NCBI GenBank assembly: GCA_021846125.1
Contig: JAJZCK010000003.1
Location: 1 to 38,664, forward strand
Reading direction: 5' to 3'
Length of the DNA stretch: 38,664 bases
Source: Actinomycetes bacterium
GTDB lineage: Bacteria; Actinomycetota; Acidimicrobiia; Acidimicrobiales; Bog-793
Each line of letters starts with the position of its first letter. Within the stretch, counting starts at the first letter, position 1. This document shows, piece after piece, positions 18,088 through 25,074 of the stretch. Position numbers and translations under genes: made by a program. The notes beneath the pieces were generated by a model, which was not told where the DNA came from, made no database searches, and saw only the letters and a list, made by a program, of their open reading frames with translations.

Positions 18088-18747
18088 GTGGCGACGAAGG
18101 ACGTGAAGGCTGGGGGGCACGAGACGGAGCCTGGGCCCGACGGCAGCGAGGCCGACCCGGGCGCCACCTATCGCCAGCCGAAGAGCCTGCGGGAGATCGC
18201 GAGCGACCTCTGGCGCCCGAGGTTCGGCACGCGGCCGGAGCCTGGCGCCGGCCAGCGGGCGCCGACCACGAAGGACGTCGTCAACGGCCTCGCCCGCAAC
18301 GAGCTCGCCATCGGCACGGCTCTGCTCCTCGCCGAGCTGGCGATCACGATCGCGGACTACGTCGTCTGGCACCACTCGCACGACCTGAAGCTTCGCCAGC
18401 TCGCGCCGGACGCCCTCGTCGCCGGACTCGTCGGCACGGCGATCATGGCCCTCGGCGTGGCGCTCCACCGCCGCGCCCTGCTCGGTTTCGCAGCCTTCAT
18501 CGTCGGCATGGAGTCGATCTCCTTCGGCAACGTCTTCGGTCTCATCTACCTGTTCTTCGGGGGATGGCTCATCATGCGGGTCATGCGCAAGCAGCGCCAG
18601 GACAAGGCCCTCGGCCTCGCGGCGTCGTCCGCCGACCCCCGCAGGACCACGCGGTCGGCCCGCTCGGCGCGACCGGTGCCGTCGGGACCGAAGCCGTCGA
18701 AGCGCTACACCCCGCCGCGGCGCTCGGCCGCGGCGAGGAAGCGGTGA
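18088..18747 (+). CDS. Small membrane protein of unknown function
   Basis: I do not recognise a family. The 219-residue product starts with a charged, glycine/proline-rich segment (about 1-70). It has three or four hydrophobic helices between roughly 71 and 170 (LAIGTALLLAELAITIADYVV, then ALVAGLVGTAIMALGVAL, then LLGFAAFIVGMESISFGNVF with GLIYLFFGGWLIM). It ends with a strongly basic tail rich in R, S, P and K. GTG 18088 is the chosen start. The hydrophobic core and frame use mark it as coding. It is 81 bp upstream of the acyl reductase gene in the same direction and may be cotranscribed, but a functional link is not shown. Confidence 0.75.
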   Translation: MATKDVKAGGHETEPGPDGSEADPGATYRQPKSLREIASDLWRPRFGTRPEPGAGQRAPTTKDVVNGLARNELAIGTALLLAELAITIADYVVWHHSHDLKLRQLAPDALVAGLVGTAIMALGVALHRRALLGFAAFIVGMESISFGNVFGLIYLFFGGWLIMRVMRKQRQDKALGLAASSADPRRTTRSARSARPVPSGPKPSKRYTPPRRSAAARKR

Positions 18748-18828: not shown

Positions 18829-21252
18829 ATGATCGCCGACGCGCTCGCCGGCAAGAGGATTGCCGTCACCGGGGCGACCGGCTTCCTCGGCACCGCTCTC
18901 GTCGAGCGCCTCCTGCGCAGCGTTCCAGGGTGCGAGGTCGTCCTGCTCGTGCGACCGGGTCGTCGGCTCGACGCAGCGGAGCGCACGGCACGCGAGATCT
19001 TGCGCAACGACTGCTTCGACCGGCTCCGGGCCGAGCTCGGCGACGGCTTCGCCGGCGAGGTCGCTCGCCGCGTCACCACGATCGCCGGCGACGTCGGGAC
19101 CGACGGCCTCGGCCTCGACGACCAAGCACGGGCCCTGCTCGCGAGCTGCGACGTGGTCGTCCACTCCGCGGCGACGGTCAGCTTCGACGCCCCGCTCGAC
19201 GGCGCCGTCGAGGTCAACCTGCTCGGTCCGAGCCGTGTGGCGGCCGCGATGCTCGACGCAGCGCGTGCCTACCGGCCCGCCGCTCGGCCACTCCCCCATC
19301 TCGTCGCCGTGTCGACCGCCTATGTGAACAGCGGTCACCACGGGGACGCCAGCGAGGAGCTCGTCACGCAGAGCCGCTACCTCGCTCTGCCGGACTGGCG
19401 CGGCGAGGTCGCTGCCGCGAGGCGCTCCCGCTCCGACGCCGACGCGGAGAGCCGGACGCCGGCAAGGCTCGCCGAGCTCCGCAAGGCCGCCCGGCGCGAG
19501 CTCGGCGCAGCGGGGACCGCTCTGCTTGCCGAGCGGACCGAGAAGCTACGCGGGGAGTGGGTGGACGACACGCTCGTCGAGCTCGGCCGGTCTCGCGCGC
19601 AAGCGCTCGGCTGGCCCGACGCCTACGCCTACACGAAGTCCCTCGGCGAGATGGCGCTCGGCGACAGCTGCGAGGACCTCCCCGTGTCGATCGTGCGCCC
19701 ATCGATCGTCGAGTCCGCCCTCGCGGAGCCGCGCCCGGGCTGGATCCGAGGCTTTCGCATGGCCGAGCCGGTCATCATCTCCTACGCCCGTGGCCTGCTC
19801 CGGCAGTTCCCCGGCGTCCCGGAGGGAGTCGTCGACGTCATACCGGTCGACCTCGTCGTCGCGGCCATCATCGCCGTCGCCGCGCACGGCCCGGAGGTCG
19901 CCGGCGGCGGTGACGGCTGCGATCCGGCCGTGTACCAGGTCGCGTCCGGCGTGCGGAACCCGTTCCGCTACGGCACCCTCGTCGACCTCTGCGAGCAGTG
20001 GTTCACCGAGCGACCCCTCTACGACGCCAAGGGCCAACCGATCGTCGTTCCCACCTGGTCCTTCCCCGGCCGTGGCAAGGTCCAGGGCGACCTGAGGCGC
20101 GCCGCGAAGGGCCTCCAGGCGATCGAGCGCATCGCGAGCATGCTGCCGGTACGCGGCGCGCTCGCCGAGAGGGTCAGCGCCGTCGAGGAGAAGCGGGACC
20201 TCGCGGAGCGTGCCCTCGGCTACGTCGAGCTCTACGGCGCCTACACCGAGACCGAGGCACGCTTTCGCGTCGACCGGACCCTCGCGCTTTACGACTCGCT
20301 CGACGACACCGACCGCACCGACTTCTGCTTCGACCCCGCTGTCGTCGACTGGGAGCACTACGTCACCGAGGTGCACCTGCCGTCGGTCGTCGCGCACGCT
20401 CGGGTCCGGACCTCGCCGGGCCGGCGTGTCACGGCGAGCAGGGAGGACCGGGCGCGGGCGGCGATCCTGTCGTCCGAGCCACGCTGCGCGGTGTTCGATC
20501 TCGAGCAGACCCTCGTGAGCTCGAACGTCGTCGAGTCGTACGCGTGGCTCGCGACACGTCACCTCGCCCCGCTCGCACGAGCACGGCTGGCGGTCCAGCT
20601 CGTCGCCGAGGGTCCTCGTCTCCTCGCGCTCGACCGCCGAGACCGCGGCGACTTCCTCCGCTCCTTCTACCGCCGCTACGAGGACGCCCCGGCCGAGCGG
20701 GTCCGTGACGACGCCTGGGAGCTGTTCGGCGACCTGATCCTCACCCGGTCGTTCCCCGACGGGTTGCAGCGGGTCCGCGACCACCGTGCGCTCGGCCACA
20801 AGACCCTGCTCATCACCGGTGCGCTCGACTTCGTCGTCGCGCCGCTCGCACCGCTGTTCGACGAGATCGTCTGCGCGCGCCTCGGCGAGCTCGACGGCAG
20901 GTTCACCGGTGAGATGGTCGCGACACCGCCGACCGGCGAGGCCCGCGCGCTTCTCATGGAGCGCTGGGCGGCATCGTTCGGGCTCGGCAAGGAGTCGACC
21001 GTCGCCTACGCGGACTCGACGAGCGACCTGCCGATGCTCGAGGCAGCCGGCCACCCGGTAGCGGTGAACCCCGAGCCGAAGCTCTCCGCTGTGGCACGCA
21101 AGCGCGGCTGGCCGGTCGAGCTCTGGCAGCAGACGCGTGGTGGACCGCGCCGGCCACTCGCCGTGTCGACCCGGCGGGTCGGCACGCGCACCCCGGCGCC
21201 GCGGGCGGCTGCCGCGGGCAACCCGGCACCGGAACGAGGACGGCTGTCGTGA
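18829..21252 (+). CDS. Fatty acyl reductase (male-sterility type SDR) fused to a HAD-IB phosphatase-like domain
   Basis: An 807-residue two-domain protein. The N-terminal part is an extended SDR of the FAR family, which reduces acyl-CoA to aldehyde or alcohol with NAD(P)H. It has TGATGFLG at residues 14-21, VVHSAATVSF, and catalytic Y266-x3-K270 in YAYTKSLGE, followed by the FAR C-terminal region to about 500. The second part (about 550-760) is a HAD-IB domain. Its motif I reads FDLEQTL, with nucleophile D557 but E559 where HAD phosphatases have the acid/base aspartate. Motif IV (D729, D733) is intact. The usual motif III lysine (GxxK) is not evident in TGEARALLMER. The phosphatase activity is therefore uncertain. 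The stop overlaps the next start (GTGA). Confidence 0.85.
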   Translation: MIADALAGKRIAVTGATGFLGTALVERLLRSVPGCEVVLLVRPGRRLDAAERTAREILRNDCFDRLRAELGDGFAGEVARRVTTIAGDVGTDGLGLDDQARALLASCDVVVHSAATVSFDAPLDGAVEVNLLGPSRVAAAMLDAARAYRPAARPLPHLVAVSTAYVNSGHHGDASEELVTQSRYLALPDWRGEVAAARRSRSDADAESRTPARLAELRKAARRELGAAGTALLAERTEKLRGEWVDDTLVELGRSRAQALGWPDAYAYTKSLGEMALGDSCEDLPVSIVRPSIVESALAEPRPGWIRGFRMAEPVIISYARGLLRQFPGVPEGVVDVIPVDLVVAAIIAVAAHGPEVAGGGDGCDPAVYQVASGVRNPFRYGTLVDLCEQWFTERPLYDAKGQPIVVPTWSFPGRGKVQGDLRRAAKGLQAIERIASMLPVRGALAERVSAVEEKRDLAERALGYVELYGAYTETEARFRVDRTLALYDSLDDTDRTDFCFDPAVVDWEHYVTEVHLPSVVAHARVRTSPGRRVTASREDRARAAILSSEPRCAVFDLEQTLVSSNVVESYAWLATRHLAPLARARLAVQLVAEGPRLLALDRRDRGDFLRSFYRRYEDAPAERVRDDAWELFGDLILTRSFPDGLQRVRDHRALGHKTLLITGALDFVVAPLAPLFDEIVCARLGELDGRFTGEMVATPPTGEARALLMERWAASFGLGKESTVAYADSTSDLPMLEAAGHPVAVNPEPKLSAVARKRGWPVELWQQTRGGPRRPLAVSTRRVGTRTPAPRAAAAGNPAPERGRLS

Positions 21253-22502
21253 GGGAGATCCTCGTCGAGCGGAGCCTTGCCCGCTTCGCCGCCGCGCGCG
21301 CCGCGTCGGTGGTCGCCGGCGCTGGCAGCGGCATCACCGTCGGGCCACTCCGCCTCGCCGACCGCGAGCCTCGGGCGCTGCCGGGCCCGGACTGGCATCG
21401 CGTCTCGCCCGTGCTCGCGGGGATCTGCGGCTCCGACCTCGCGACAGTCGACGGGGCGAGCTCGCGTTACTTCGAGTCGATCGTCAGCTTCCCCTTCGTC
21501 CTCGGGCACGAGATCGTCGGCACGGTCGGTGGCGGACGTCTCGCGGGCTCCCGGGTGGTCGTCGAGCCGGTGCTCGGCTGCGTCGCCCGCGCGATCGAGC
21601 CGCCGTGCCCGGCATGCGCGGCCGGCCGCAAGGGCGCTTGCGAGCGCATCGCCTTCGGCCACCTGAAGCCGGGCTTGCAGACGGGCTTCTGCGCGGACAC
21701 GGGCGGCGGCTGGTCGGACGGCCTCGTCGCGCACACGTCACAGCTGCACGCGGTGCCGGCGGAGCTGTCCGACGAGGCTGCGGTCATGGTCGAGCCGGCG
21801 GCGTGCGCGATCCACGCGGCACTTCTCGGCGCCGTCGTCCCGGGCGAGCGGGTCGTCGTGCTCGGCAGCGGCACGCTCGGTCTCGCCACCCTCGCCGCTC
21901 TGCGCCACTACGGCCAGCCTGCAGTCGTCGTCGCGGTCGCGAAGCACCCCGTCCAACGTGATCTCGCGGAGCAGCTCGGCGCCGACCAGGTCGTACGCCC
22001 CGAGGAGCTCGAGCGCGCCGTGCGGCGGCTCACGGGCTCCCTCGGCCTCGCGGGAGGAGGATCGCCGTCACGCCTCACCGGCGGCGCGGACGTCGTCTTC
22101 GACTGCGTCGGCTCGTCCTCGTCGATCGCCTCCTCGCTGGCGGTCGTCCGCCCCGGTGGGCGCGTCGTGCTCGTCGGGATGCCGGGCACGGTGCGGCTCG
22201 ACCTCGCGCCGCTCTGGCAGCGCGAGATCGCGCTCGTCGGTGCCTACGCCTACGGCACGGAGCAGACCCCAGACGGACCGAGGTCGACGTTCGACCTGGC
22301 GTTCGAGCTCGTCGCGGCTGCGCGCCTCGAGCGGCTCGTCTCGGCCCGCTACCCTCTCGAGCGCTACGAGGAAGCTGTGCGCCATGCTGCGAACGCAGGA
22401 CGGCGCGGCGCCGTGAAGGTCGTGTTCGCCATCGGCCGATCCTCCTCACCGGCCTGGCGGTCCGGGCCCCCGAACACCGAGAGCGTGGAGACGAACGCGT
22501 GA
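21249..22502 (+). CDS. Zinc-binding dehydrogenase (MDR family)
   Basis: A 417-residue alcohol dehydrogenase-like protein. The zinc ligands are visible in AGICGSDL and LGHEIVG, and a structural cysteine group in CPACAAGRKGAC. The NAD loop is VLGSGTLGLATLAAL. FDCVGSSSSI and GGRVVLVGMPG follow in the usual order. It is coupled to both neighbours by 4-bp GTGA overlaps, so it should act in the same pathway as the acyl reductase and the LarA-like protein. It could oxidise or reduce a long-chain alcohol or a hydroxylated intermediate. The tail of about 25 residues is not conserved. Confidence 0.85.
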   Translation: MREILVERSLARFAAARAASVVAGAGSGITVGPLRLADREPRALPGPDWHRVSPVLAGICGSDLATVDGASSRYFESIVSFPFVLGHEIVGTVGGGRLAGSRVVVEPVLGCVARAIEPPCPACAAGRKGACERIAFGHLKPGLQTGFCADTGGGWSDGLVAHTSQLHAVPAELSDEAAVMVEPAACAIHAALLGAVVPGERVVVLGSGTLGLATLAALRHYGQPAVVVAVAKHPVQRDLAEQLGADQVVRPEELERAVRRLTGSLGLAGGGSPSRLTGGADVVFDCVGSSSSIASSLAVVRPGGRVVLVGMPGTVRLDLAPLWQREIALVGAYAYGTEQTPDGPRSTFDLAFELVAAARLERLVSARYPLERYEEAVRHAANAGRRGAVKVVFAIGRSSSPAWRSGPPNTESVETNA

Positions 22503-24088
22503 GTCCGAGACCTGGTTTCGTCCTCGAGGTGGACCGTTCGACACCACCGACGTTGTTCTGGCACGGCGAAGGGTGGCGGCTCGAGCGCCTTCCCGCCGGC
22601 AGTCGTGTCGTCTACCCGCCGGAGCCCCTCCCCGCTCTCGAGGACCCTGACGCTGCGATCCGCCACGCGCTGGAGCATCCCGCGGGCGACTCCTCGCCGC
22701 TCTCCGCGCTACTCCGTCCCGGCGCCAAGGTGACGATCGCGTTCGACGACGTCTCGCTGCCGCTTCCCCCCATGCGCGCTCCCGACGTGCGCCAGCGCGT
22801 CGTCGAGGCCGTGCTCGACGCGGCCGCAGGAGCGGGCGTCGACGACGTCGTGCTGATCGCCGCGCTCGCGCTCCACCGGCGGATGACAGACGCGGAGCTG
22901 CGCCACGCGCTCGGGTCCCGGGTGTTCGACGCGTTCGCCCCGCACGGCCTGCTCCTCCAGCACGACGCGGAGGACCCGGCCGGTGTCGTCCACCTCGGCC
23001 TCACGGACCACGGCGAGGACGTCGAGATCAACCGCCGCGCGGCCGAGAGCGACCTTCTCGTCTACGTCAACATCAATCTCGTCGCGATGGACGGCGGCCA
23101 CAAGTCGGTGGCGACGGGCCTGGCGAGCTACAAGAGCATCCGCCACCACCACAACGTCCGCACGATGCAGCAGAGCCGCTCGTTCATGGACCGCCACCAC
23201 AGCGAGCTCCACACGTCGAACTGGCGCATGGGCCGGCTCATCGCGAAGGCAGGTGTCAAGGTCTTCCAGATCGAGACCACCTTGAACCTCGACACCTTCC
23301 CGTCGCAGTTCTCCTTCCTGCAAAAGCGCGAGTGGGAGTGGTCTCTCCGGGACCGTGCTGCGTTCCACGCGACGAGCGCGGCGCTCGAGCGCACCCCGGC
23401 AGGGCTCAAGCGCCAGATCTTCCAGTCGATCCGCTCGCCACACGCGCTCACCTCGGTCCACGCTGGCGAGGTGGAAGCGGTCCACGAGCTCACGCTCGCA
23501 GACGTCCACCGCCAGCAGCTCGTACGCGTCGACGGCCAGGCCGACGTCCTCACGATGGGCCTTCCATACATCTGCCCGTACAACGTCAACTCGATCATGA
23601 ACCCGATCCTCGTCGCGTGCCTCGGGCTCGGGTACTTCTTCAACCTCTACCGGGGCAGGCCGCTCGTGCGCGAGGGGGGGGTGTGCATCATGTCGCACCC
23701 GACGCCGTGGGCGTTCAACCCAGTCCATCACCCGAGCTACATCGACTTCTTCGAGCAGGTGCTCGCCGAGACCGTCGACCCGCTCGAGATCGAGGCCAAG
23801 TACGAGGAGTCGTTCGCCACCGATCCGTGGTACGTCCACCTCTACCGCACCTCGAACGCCTACCACGGGGTGCACCCGTTCTACATGTGGTACTGGTGCG
23901 CGCACGCCCTCCAGCACCTCGGGCAGGTGATCGTCGTCGGCGGCGACAGGGCGGCCGTCCGCAGGCTCGGCTTCAAGCCCGCCTCGAGCCTCGCCGACGC
24001 GCTCGAGATGGCCGAGGACGTCGTCGGGCGCGACCCGAGCATCACCCACCTGCACAACCCACCGCTGTTCCTCGCCGACGTCACGTGA
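22499..24088 (+). CDS. LarA-like (DUF2088, lactate racemase N-terminal domain) protein
   Basis: A 529-residue member of the LarA superfamily, whose characterised members racemise or epimerise 2-hydroxy acids with a nickel-pincer nucleotide. The opening FDDVSLPLPPM matches the LarA substrate loop. LHRRMTDAEL places H126 at the first catalytic histidine position. GGHKSVATGLASY places K202 at the lysine that holds the cofactor, and H216-H218 follow. The protein is about 100 residues longer than typical LarA. No larB, larC or larE genes for cofactor synthesis are in the window. It is coupled to an MDR upstream and an acyltransferase downstream, a setting unlike lactate metabolism. A lipid-related hydroxy-acid or sugar-acid substrate is an inference. 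Confidence 0.78.
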   Translation: MSPRPGFVLEVDRSTPPTLFWHGEGWRLERLPAGSRVVYPPEPLPALEDPDAAIRHALEHPAGDSSPLSALLRPGAKVTIAFDDVSLPLPPMRAPDVRQRVVEAVLDAAAGAGVDDVVLIAALALHRRMTDAELRHALGSRVFDAFAPHGLLLQHDAEDPAGVVHLGLTDHGEDVEINRRAAESDLLVYVNINLVAMDGGHKSVATGLASYKSIRHHHNVRTMQQSRSFMDRHHSELHTSNWRMGRLIAKAGVKVFQIETTLNLDTFPSQFSFLQKREWEWSLRDRAAFHATSAALERTPAGLKRQIFQSIRSPHALTSVHAGEVEAVHELTLADVHRQQLVRVDGQADVLTMGLPYICPYNVNSIMNPILVACLGLGYFFNLYRGRPLVREGGVCIMSHPTPWAFNPVHHPSYIDFFEQVLAETVDPLEIEAKYEESFATDPWYVHLYRTSNAYHGVHPFYMWYWCAHALQHLGQVIVVGGDRAAVRRLGFKPASSLADALEMAEDVVGRDPSITHLHNPPLFLADVT

Positions 24089-25074
24089 GCCCTGCACCCG
24101 AGCGTCCCGTCACCCGGGGACACTCCTCGCCCGTCGTCCGGCTGCCGCGCAAGATGCTCGGTGCGCTCGCTCCCCCGACCTGGCCGGGGACGGTCGAGCG
24201 GCCCCTGCCGCGCAGCCACGTCGGCACCGACTACGACACGAGCTGGTCCCGTACCCCCGTCGCGCGGCTCGCGCGGGCGATGATCACCGACAACATCACC
24301 CGGCCGTTCGTCCGCCTTGCCGCGGCGCCGACAGTCGTCGGTGCCGAGCACCTCGACCCGCTCCGCGGTCCCGTCATCTTCGCTGCGAACCACTCGAGCC
24401 ATCTCGACACCGCGATCGTGCTCAGCGCGCTCCCCGTGCGCTACCGCCACCACTGCGTGGTCGCGGCCGCGGCCGACTACTTCTTCGACCGGCGCTGGAA
24501 GGGCGACCTATGGTCGCTCGCCCTCGGCACGATCCCGATGGAGCGCTCCCGGGTGAACCGACGCAGCGTGGACCTCGCCGCCGAGCTCGTCGCAGACGGC
24601 TGGAGCGTGGTCATCTTTCCCGAAGGCGGGCGGACAACCGACGGCTGGGGCCAGGAGTTCCGCGGCTGGACCGCGTACCTCGCGAAGCGCTGCGGCGTGC
24701 CCGTCGTCCCGGTCCATCTCCACGGCGTGCGGCCGATCTTCCCGAAGGGCGGGAACCGCCTCCGGCCGGGCGAGGTCGAGGTCCGCTTCGGCGCTCCGCT
24801 CCGGCCGCTCACAGCCACCGCGACAGCCTCGGAAGGTGGGCACGGTCGCGAGGAGGACGCACGCCGTTTCGGCGCGCGCGTGGAGCAGAGCGTCGCCGCT
24901 CTCGCGGACGAGGCGGAGACGGACTGGTGGTCCGCTCGCCGGCGCGCGGCGCGAGGTGAGACACCCGACCTGCGGGGCCCTGACGCCGCAGCGTGGCGCC
25001 GGGCGTGGTTGCTCCCCGAGAGCCGGCGCTCGAACGCCGGTGTGCGCCGGCGCACCCCCTCCGCACCCTGGTGA
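24085..25074 (+). CDS. Lysophospholipid/glycerol-phosphate acyltransferase family protein (PlsC-like)
   Basis: A 329-residue membrane-associated acyltransferase that transfers an acyl chain from acyl-CoA or acyl-ACP to a hydroxyl acceptor. The catalytic HX4D motif is H103-D108 in NHSSHLD. The acceptor-binding FPEGG motif is at residues 178-182, and PVVPVHLHG follows as usual. GTG 24085 overlaps the previous stop (GTGA). The C-terminal 60 residues are charged and not conserved. It closes the four-gene operon; a hairpin lies about 90 bp downstream. The acceptor is unknown; together with the reductase it suggests assembly of an acylated or ether/alcohol lipid. Confidence 0.87.
   Translation: MSPAPERPVTRGHSSPVVRLPRKMLGALAPPTWPGTVERPLPRSHVGTDYDTSWSRTPVARLARAMITDNITRPFVRLAAAPTVVGAEHLDPLRGPVIFAANHSSHLDTAIVLSALPVRYRHHCVVAAAADYFFDRRWKGDLWSLALGTIPMERSRVNRRSVDLAAELVADGWSVVIFPEGGRTTDGWGQEFRGWTAYLAKRCGVPVVPVHLHGVRPIFPKGGNRLRPGEVEVRFGAPLRPLTATATASEGGHGREEDARRFGARVEQSVAALADEAETDWWSARRRAARGETPDLRGPDAAAWRRAWLLPESRRSNAGVRRRTPSAPW

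Follow-up and report, generated by a model that had tools for sequence, protein, structure and literature searches.

Four overlapping genes on contig JAJZCK010000003.1 of an Actinomycetes bacterium (assembly GCA_021846125.1, order Acidimicrobiales) encode a fatty acyl reductase fused to a HAD phosphatase (FAR-HAD), a zinc dehydrogenase of the MDR type, a LarA-like protein and an acyltransferase. We lean towards the view that this operon makes a 1-O-alkyl-glycerol-phosphate block, the core of mixed ether/ester phospholipids, a view in which we infer every substrate and product. The window, i.e. the whole stretch of 38,664 nucleotides that was analysed, holds the genes as four intact frames on the plus strand spanning 18829-25074, and every neighbouring pair has a GTGA in common:

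18829..21252, plus strand: FAR-HAD fusion, 807 amino acids, with NAD_binding_4, a C-terminal Sterile-like part up to about residue 530 and a HAD-IB phosphatase domain at about residues 552-763
21249..21252, plus strand: first GTGA start/stop overlap, read from the sequence
21249..22502, plus strand: zinc MDR dehydrogenase, 417 amino acids, ADH_N/ADH_zinc_N
22499..22502, plus strand: second GTGA start/stop overlap, read from the sequence
22499..24088, plus strand: LarA-like protein of the nickel-pincer (NPN) cofactor family (LarAH14/15/16, NF052592), 529 amino acids, Lar_N
24085..24088, plus strand: third GTGA start/stop overlap, read from the sequence
24085..25074, plus strand: LPLAT/PlsC-superfamily acyltransferase, called here type A, 329 amino acids, GTG start, PF01553

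The initial annotation had described four genes joined by three GTGA overlaps, which the open reading frame coordinates and the domain searches bear out, and had argued from this coupling that they serve one product. Their conserved co-occurrence, both in 119 genomes of the class and in the 80 best loci of named relatives, supports the idea of one functional unit. NF052592 is found above its cut-off in 21 of the 119 class genomes, every one of them in the window's order, and in 20 of these 21 loci the MDR and acyltransferase genes stand beside the LarA-family gene (the remaining one is without MDR). All genomes that carry the LarA-like gene (21/21) have a full-length FAR-HAD and none of the others does (0/98), their matches of about 30% being confined to the HAD portion; the corresponding Fisher p value of 9e-24 ignores relatedness and is hence overstated. 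The named relatives that match best are metagenome-assembled genomes of Acidimicrobiales/Acidimicrobiaceae. In all 80 loci LarA keeps its operon partners up to the contig ends, except that L141 and L146 are without MDR, which is also missing from the operon of L053. Gene order in close relatives, on which the earlier proposal had been made to depend, is thus conserved, and many named relatives keep the start/stop overlap itself, a 4-base overlap being possible at 58 of 70 HAD-MDR, 40 of 77 MDR-LarA and 39 of 77 LarA-acyltransferase junctions. Other classes of the phylum carry the same four genes at 35-67% identity. Finally, the pairwise distances of the four proteins correlate at 0.76-0.88 over 73 loci, a comparison made with no species-tree control, and this is consistent with their co-inheritance.

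Conserved catalytic residues (counted, here and below, over 83 FAR-HAD, 91 MDR and 98 LarA-like sequences) suggest that all four proteins are working enzymes. The FAR part matches NAD_binding_4 in the domain search, with a weak Sterile C-terminal domain just under its cut-off, and the closest solved structures are the fatty acyl-CoA reductase 7eoz for the N-terminal part (E 1e-66) and the HAD-IB protein 3fvv for the HAD part. Y266xxxK270 and the HAD residues D557, T561, D729 and D733 are kept in 82-83 of the 83 sequences; in 76 of the 83 the second Asp of HAD motif I (residue 559) is a Glu, giving DxE in place of DxD. One TGA lies inside the FAR-HAD match both at G014:C1:1497648-1499963 and at G087:C34:117294-119738, possibly marking a gene end or a split between domains. 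As for the MDR protein, its ligand-type residues C60, H87, E88 and E182 and four Cys are kept in about 89-91 of 91 sequences, and the solved structures closest to it are those of a ketose reductase and of sorbitol/xylitol dehydrogenases, enzymes that work at the C2 of ketoses and polyols.

The acyltransferase had been labelled PlsC. It is PlsC-like only in a generic sense (the NHxSHxD and PEGxR motifs are invariant, and the closest solved relative is PlsC, 5kym), and in function it seems nearer to an enzyme of sn-1 acylation. Of the 21 operon genomes of the window's order, 9 have no PlsY. Neither PlsY nor a PlsB-like protein was found in the window's own genome (G000) or in the one treated here as Acidimicrobium ferrooxidans (G014), PlsX being present in both, so that these two genomes appear to be without a canonical enzyme for the first acylation of glycerol phosphate. 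Each has just two PF01553 proteins, the type A protein of the operon and a canonical PlsC-type one, whose gene adjoins cmk in the window's own genome. When acyltransferases were partitioned into type A and PlsC by tblastn, six operon-less members of the order without PlsY had one of each, whereas the two tested that do have PlsY had PlsC only. Because PlsY-less genomes carry type A in place of PlsY, sn-1 acylation by type A is the simplest reading of this small sample. In Rubrobacter-like loci (the group of G157, which may be Rubrobacter xylanophilus) a PlsY gene (177 bits, cut-off 137) immediately precedes FAR-HAD, and LarA is not followed by an acyltransferase.

These data also bear on a storage role. 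FAR enzymes make fatty alcohols in known wax-ester pathways, and the assignment of the first gene as FAR would suit an operon in which the acyltransferase esterifies such an alcohol. We consider this very improbable, however: the acyltransferase belongs to the glycerophosphate type of LPLAT enzymes and stands in for PlsY in relatives, and the NPN enzyme and the phosphatase would be left with no role.

A further link to ether lipids is the presence, about 1-4 kb upstream of FAR-HAD in five relatives (G079, G114, L086, L078 and L075), of homologues of alkyl-dihydroxyacetone phosphate (alkyl-DHAP) synthase, AGPS, with the HHH motif. PF02913 alone is uninformative for this enzyme, glycolate-oxidase-like members occurring in every genome, and its matches were compared with AGPS homologues and checked for the HHH motif. 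The homologues reach E values of 1e-77 and 4e-63 to a solved alkyl-DHAP synthase (ADHAPS); with glycolate oxidase or D-lactate dehydrogenase the value is about 1e-24. Those close to an operon, all with the HHH motif, are:

L219, 6891-8579: AGPS homologue
L220, 12908-15037: AGPS homologue
L075, L078 and L086: AGPS homologues

We think that an ether-lipid operon is the best explanation because the genes supply parts of the alkyl-DHAP route, namely a FAR, a reductase of the ketose type, an acyltransferase for sn-1 and sometimes AGPS, to which we add the resemblance to the elb operon discussed below and the Rubrobacterales, an order whose lipids are reportedly dominated by mixed ether/ester forms. 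Of the products that had been suggested at the outset, the ether-type, fatty-alcohol-derived lipid is thus the one favoured by the conserved co-occurrence, by PlsY beside the Rubrobacter-like operons and by AGPS upstream of the operon in five relatives. In the pathway that we propose, the acyltransferase would acylate glycerol-3-phosphate or DHAP at sn-1, acyl-CoA or acyl-ACP would be reduced by the FAR domain to a fatty aldehyde or alcohol, and the alkyl chain would then replace the acyl chain, or be joined. The ketose-reductase-like MDR would reduce the C2 ketone of alkyl-DHAP, the LarA-like protein with its hydride-transferring NPN cofactor might work on a secondary alcohol/ketone step instead of racemising 2-hydroxyacids, the HAD domain could serve as a phosphatase, and the separate, cmk-linked PlsC would finally add the sn-2 acyl chain.

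Several observations weigh against this proposal. No AGPS is present among the PF02913 matches of the window's own genome, of A. ferrooxidans or of G157, the best-sampled Rubrobacter-like genome, and because alkyl-DHAP synthase is absent there, these three genomes contain no known ether-forming enzyme. Of the 46 named loci whose upstream sequence extends to 3 kb or more, just 3 have AGPS beside the operon, and two other genomes have it as well. MDR is missing from three loci, LarC was not detected in two operon genomes (G075 and G087), and PlsY is located elsewhere in the genome in 12 of the 21 operon genomes. The lipid link to Rubrobacterales depends on the reported dominance of such lipids in that order and on the presumed identity of the Rubrobacter-like genomes. 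Moreover, an elbD homologue is no sure sign of ether lipids, as Pontiella shows (PMC11868695). Separately from these objections, PF06050 (HGD-D), the mark of the Ger/PlsA ester-to-ether pathway, is absent from 22 of 23 operon genomes, including the window's own, and also from A. ferrooxidans, and a search of the literature for ether lipids in Acidimicrobiia found none.

The LarA-like protein scores 899 bits against the NF052592 cut-off of 740, over residues 7-528, and belongs to the named but uncharacterised family LarAH14/15/16. In a profile alignment to Lactiplantibacillus LarA, K202 corresponds to the NPN-binding Lys184, H218 to the nickel ligand His200, H126 to the first catalytic His108 and D84 to Asp72; these residues, expected of the NPN-dependent LarA superfamily, are invariant in 98/98 sequences. 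On the other hand, neither feature of a 2-hydroxyacid racemase or epimerase is there: the second His of the catalytic pair, His174, is replaced by Asn193 in 97/98 sequences, and Arg75, which binds the carboxylate and the NPN phosphate, by Leu87 in 96/98. Loss of H174 in LarAH groups 14 and 15 has already been published (PMC12611868, PMC7583248), and a Frankia LarAH14 member was inactive on every hydroxyacid assayed (PMC7583248). The LarA-like protein is probably not a racemase, because the second catalytic His has become Asn and the carboxylate-binding Arg has become Leu, and the initial reading of a hydroxy-acid racemase/epimerase is not supported.

An AlphaFold model (pLDDT 93) has as its top PDB matches 9q3k and 9q3j, single-His LarA enzymes. 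The window protein resembles these enzymes, LarA_Bw and LarA_Sp (9q2u, 9q3k, 9q3j), in its fold, NPN lysine, nickel His, first catalytic His and the change of the second His to Asn, whereas identity over the fold is about 24%, a Leu occupies the position of their carboxylate Arg/Lys, and their context is carbohydrate metabolism rather than lipid synthesis. Use of NPN is supported by the distribution of cofactor genes: LarC was detected in 19/21 operon genomes versus 2/98 others (19/21 versus 0/9 inside the window's order alone), LarB and LarC are adjacent to each other in the window's own genome, and larE-larB-larC lie directly beside the operon in L056. The LarA-like proteins of G075 and G087 keep their NPN-binding residues despite the lack of a detected LarC; G087 carries an alkyl-DHAP synthase homologue and the operon of G075 is without MDR. 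Another LarA group, more distant at about 40-46% identity, is found in L065 (G133) and L066 (G160), which come from other members of the phylum, outside any FAR, MDR or acyltransferase context.

The same residues allow us to weigh a quite different product, a long-chain 1,2-diol or 2-hydroxy-acyl lipid, for which the LarA-like protein would set or move the C2 hydroxyl of a fatty acid, FAR would reduce it and the acyltransferase would acylate the diol. A FAR together with a hydroxyacid-type NPN enzyme would suit such a product, and the membrane of Thermomicrobium roseum is formed of long-chain 1,2-diols (PMC2615216). We nevertheless find this scenario quite unlikely, given that the carboxylate-binding Arg75 is a Leu, that PlsY beside the operon and the nearby alkyl-DHAP synthase indicate glycerol phosphate, and that the unit has no conserved hydroxylase in 40 clustered loci.

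Within the ether-lipid explanation, two finer versions can be distinguished, and our confidence in them hence overlaps with that in the explanation as a whole. The first makes the LarA-like NPN enzyme itself form the ether bond by a hidden redox reaction. The fatty aldehyde produced by FAR and the C1 hydroxyl of glycerol phosphate would give a hemiacetal; NPN would abstract the hydride at C2 and pass it on to the acetal carbon while water is lost, to yield alkyl-DHAP, which MDR would then reduce. The NPN enzyme is the obvious candidate for ether formation (alkyl transfer) where AGPS is absent, because such enzymes exchange hydride with secondary alcohols and this one is without the residue that holds a carboxylate. 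The NPN-anchoring residues are indeed invariant while the second His and the carboxylate Arg are gone, the window's own genome and A. ferrooxidans contain neither alkyl-DHAP synthase nor Ger-type PF06050, MDR is similar to ketose reductases, and Desguin et al. suggested that LarA homologues with a single His might pass hydride on to a neighbouring site (PMC7583248). Yet NPN action is without precedent beyond 2-hydroxyacids, and LarA-like and alkyl-DHAP synthase coexist in some operon genomes, so that we regard this first version as unlikely.

The second version restricts the LarA-like protein and MDR to preparing the backbone or head group, for instance by interconverting a glycerol-phosphate-like alcohol with its ketone or stereoisomer, and leaves the ether to FAR-HAD or to an unrecognised enzyme encoded elsewhere. 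It would agree with the polyol dehydrogenase type of MDR and with the fact that MDR and LarC are sometimes lost while the other genes remain; ether formation by ElbD, for its part, is left open in the Myxococcus work (PMC9131029). Apart from a small membrane protein, however, most genomes share no additional gene in the neighbourhood of the unit, and we hold this second version to be possible, with the odds somewhat against it.

Returning to the ether-lipid operon as such, its gene families and its theme are already known. The elb operon of Myxococcus (ElbA-E; PMC9131029) likewise encodes an acyltransferase of the glycerolipid type and an NAD-dependent oxidoreductase together with a HAD phosphohydrolase and a FAR domain. 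It differs in that ElbD has acyl-CoA synthetase and ACP domains and SDR partners (ElbE), none of which occur in the four proteins of the window, whereas the window operon has FAR fused to HAD and contains an MDR and an NPN-family LarA-like protein. In the eukaryotic and myxobacterial alkyl-DHAP pathway (GNPAT, AGPS, FAR1 and alkyl-DHAP reductase), the acyltransferase, the FAR and the ketone reductase can each be paired with one enzyme of our operon, but the window's own genome has no AGPS homologue and the operon has a LarA-like gene instead. A putative 1-O-alkyl-glycerol-phosphate operon in Rubrobacter is reported to have been described by Sinninghe Damste et al. in 2023, and it probably corresponds to the Rubrobacter form of this gene unit, which has PlsY where the Acidimicrobiales form has a PlsC-superfamily acyltransferase. 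Our literature search did not find an ether-lipid operon combined with a nickel-pincer enzyme, with the proviso that the Rubrobacter form may already be published.

If the proposal is true, an uncharacterised family of nickel-pincer enzymes gains a concrete pathway, and mixed ether/ester membrane lipids should be expected across Acidimicrobiia, Rubrobacter-like and other deep-branching actinobacteria. Ether-bond formation in aerobic bacteria that have neither alkyl-DHAP synthase nor Ger becomes testable in cultured strains, with implications for the "lipid divide" and for the question of where bacterial ether-lipid biomarkers come from. Ether formation by NPN, if it were real, would be the first reaction of this cofactor outside 2-hydroxyacid isomerisation and its first link to membrane lipids, in a previously unrecognised aerobic pathway.

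Around the unit, clustering of open reading frames over 40 loci left only the four operon genes as near-universal. Aconitase, Ddl, MurF, glutamate synthase, LysR and GNAT were considered as wider members of the operon and rejected, their presence varying among loci. The small membrane protein mentioned above lies 81 bases upstream of FAR-HAD:

18106..18747, plus strand: small membrane-type protein, candidate fifth member, with a tentative start and a C-terminal KRYTPPR

It matches no Pfam or NCBIfam family. By tblastn it has homologues in the loci of 27 relatives, those checked sitting just upstream of FAR-HAD, and a motif search places the KRYTPP(R/K) signature immediately before FAR at 26 of 75 loci, so this protein may be a fifth member of the operon.

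One entry among the named loci deserves a word of caution: L119 (CAMCTY010000010.1), titled Bifidobacterium breve, bears an acidimicrobial operon with a LarA identity of 72%, and its title is very likely wrong.

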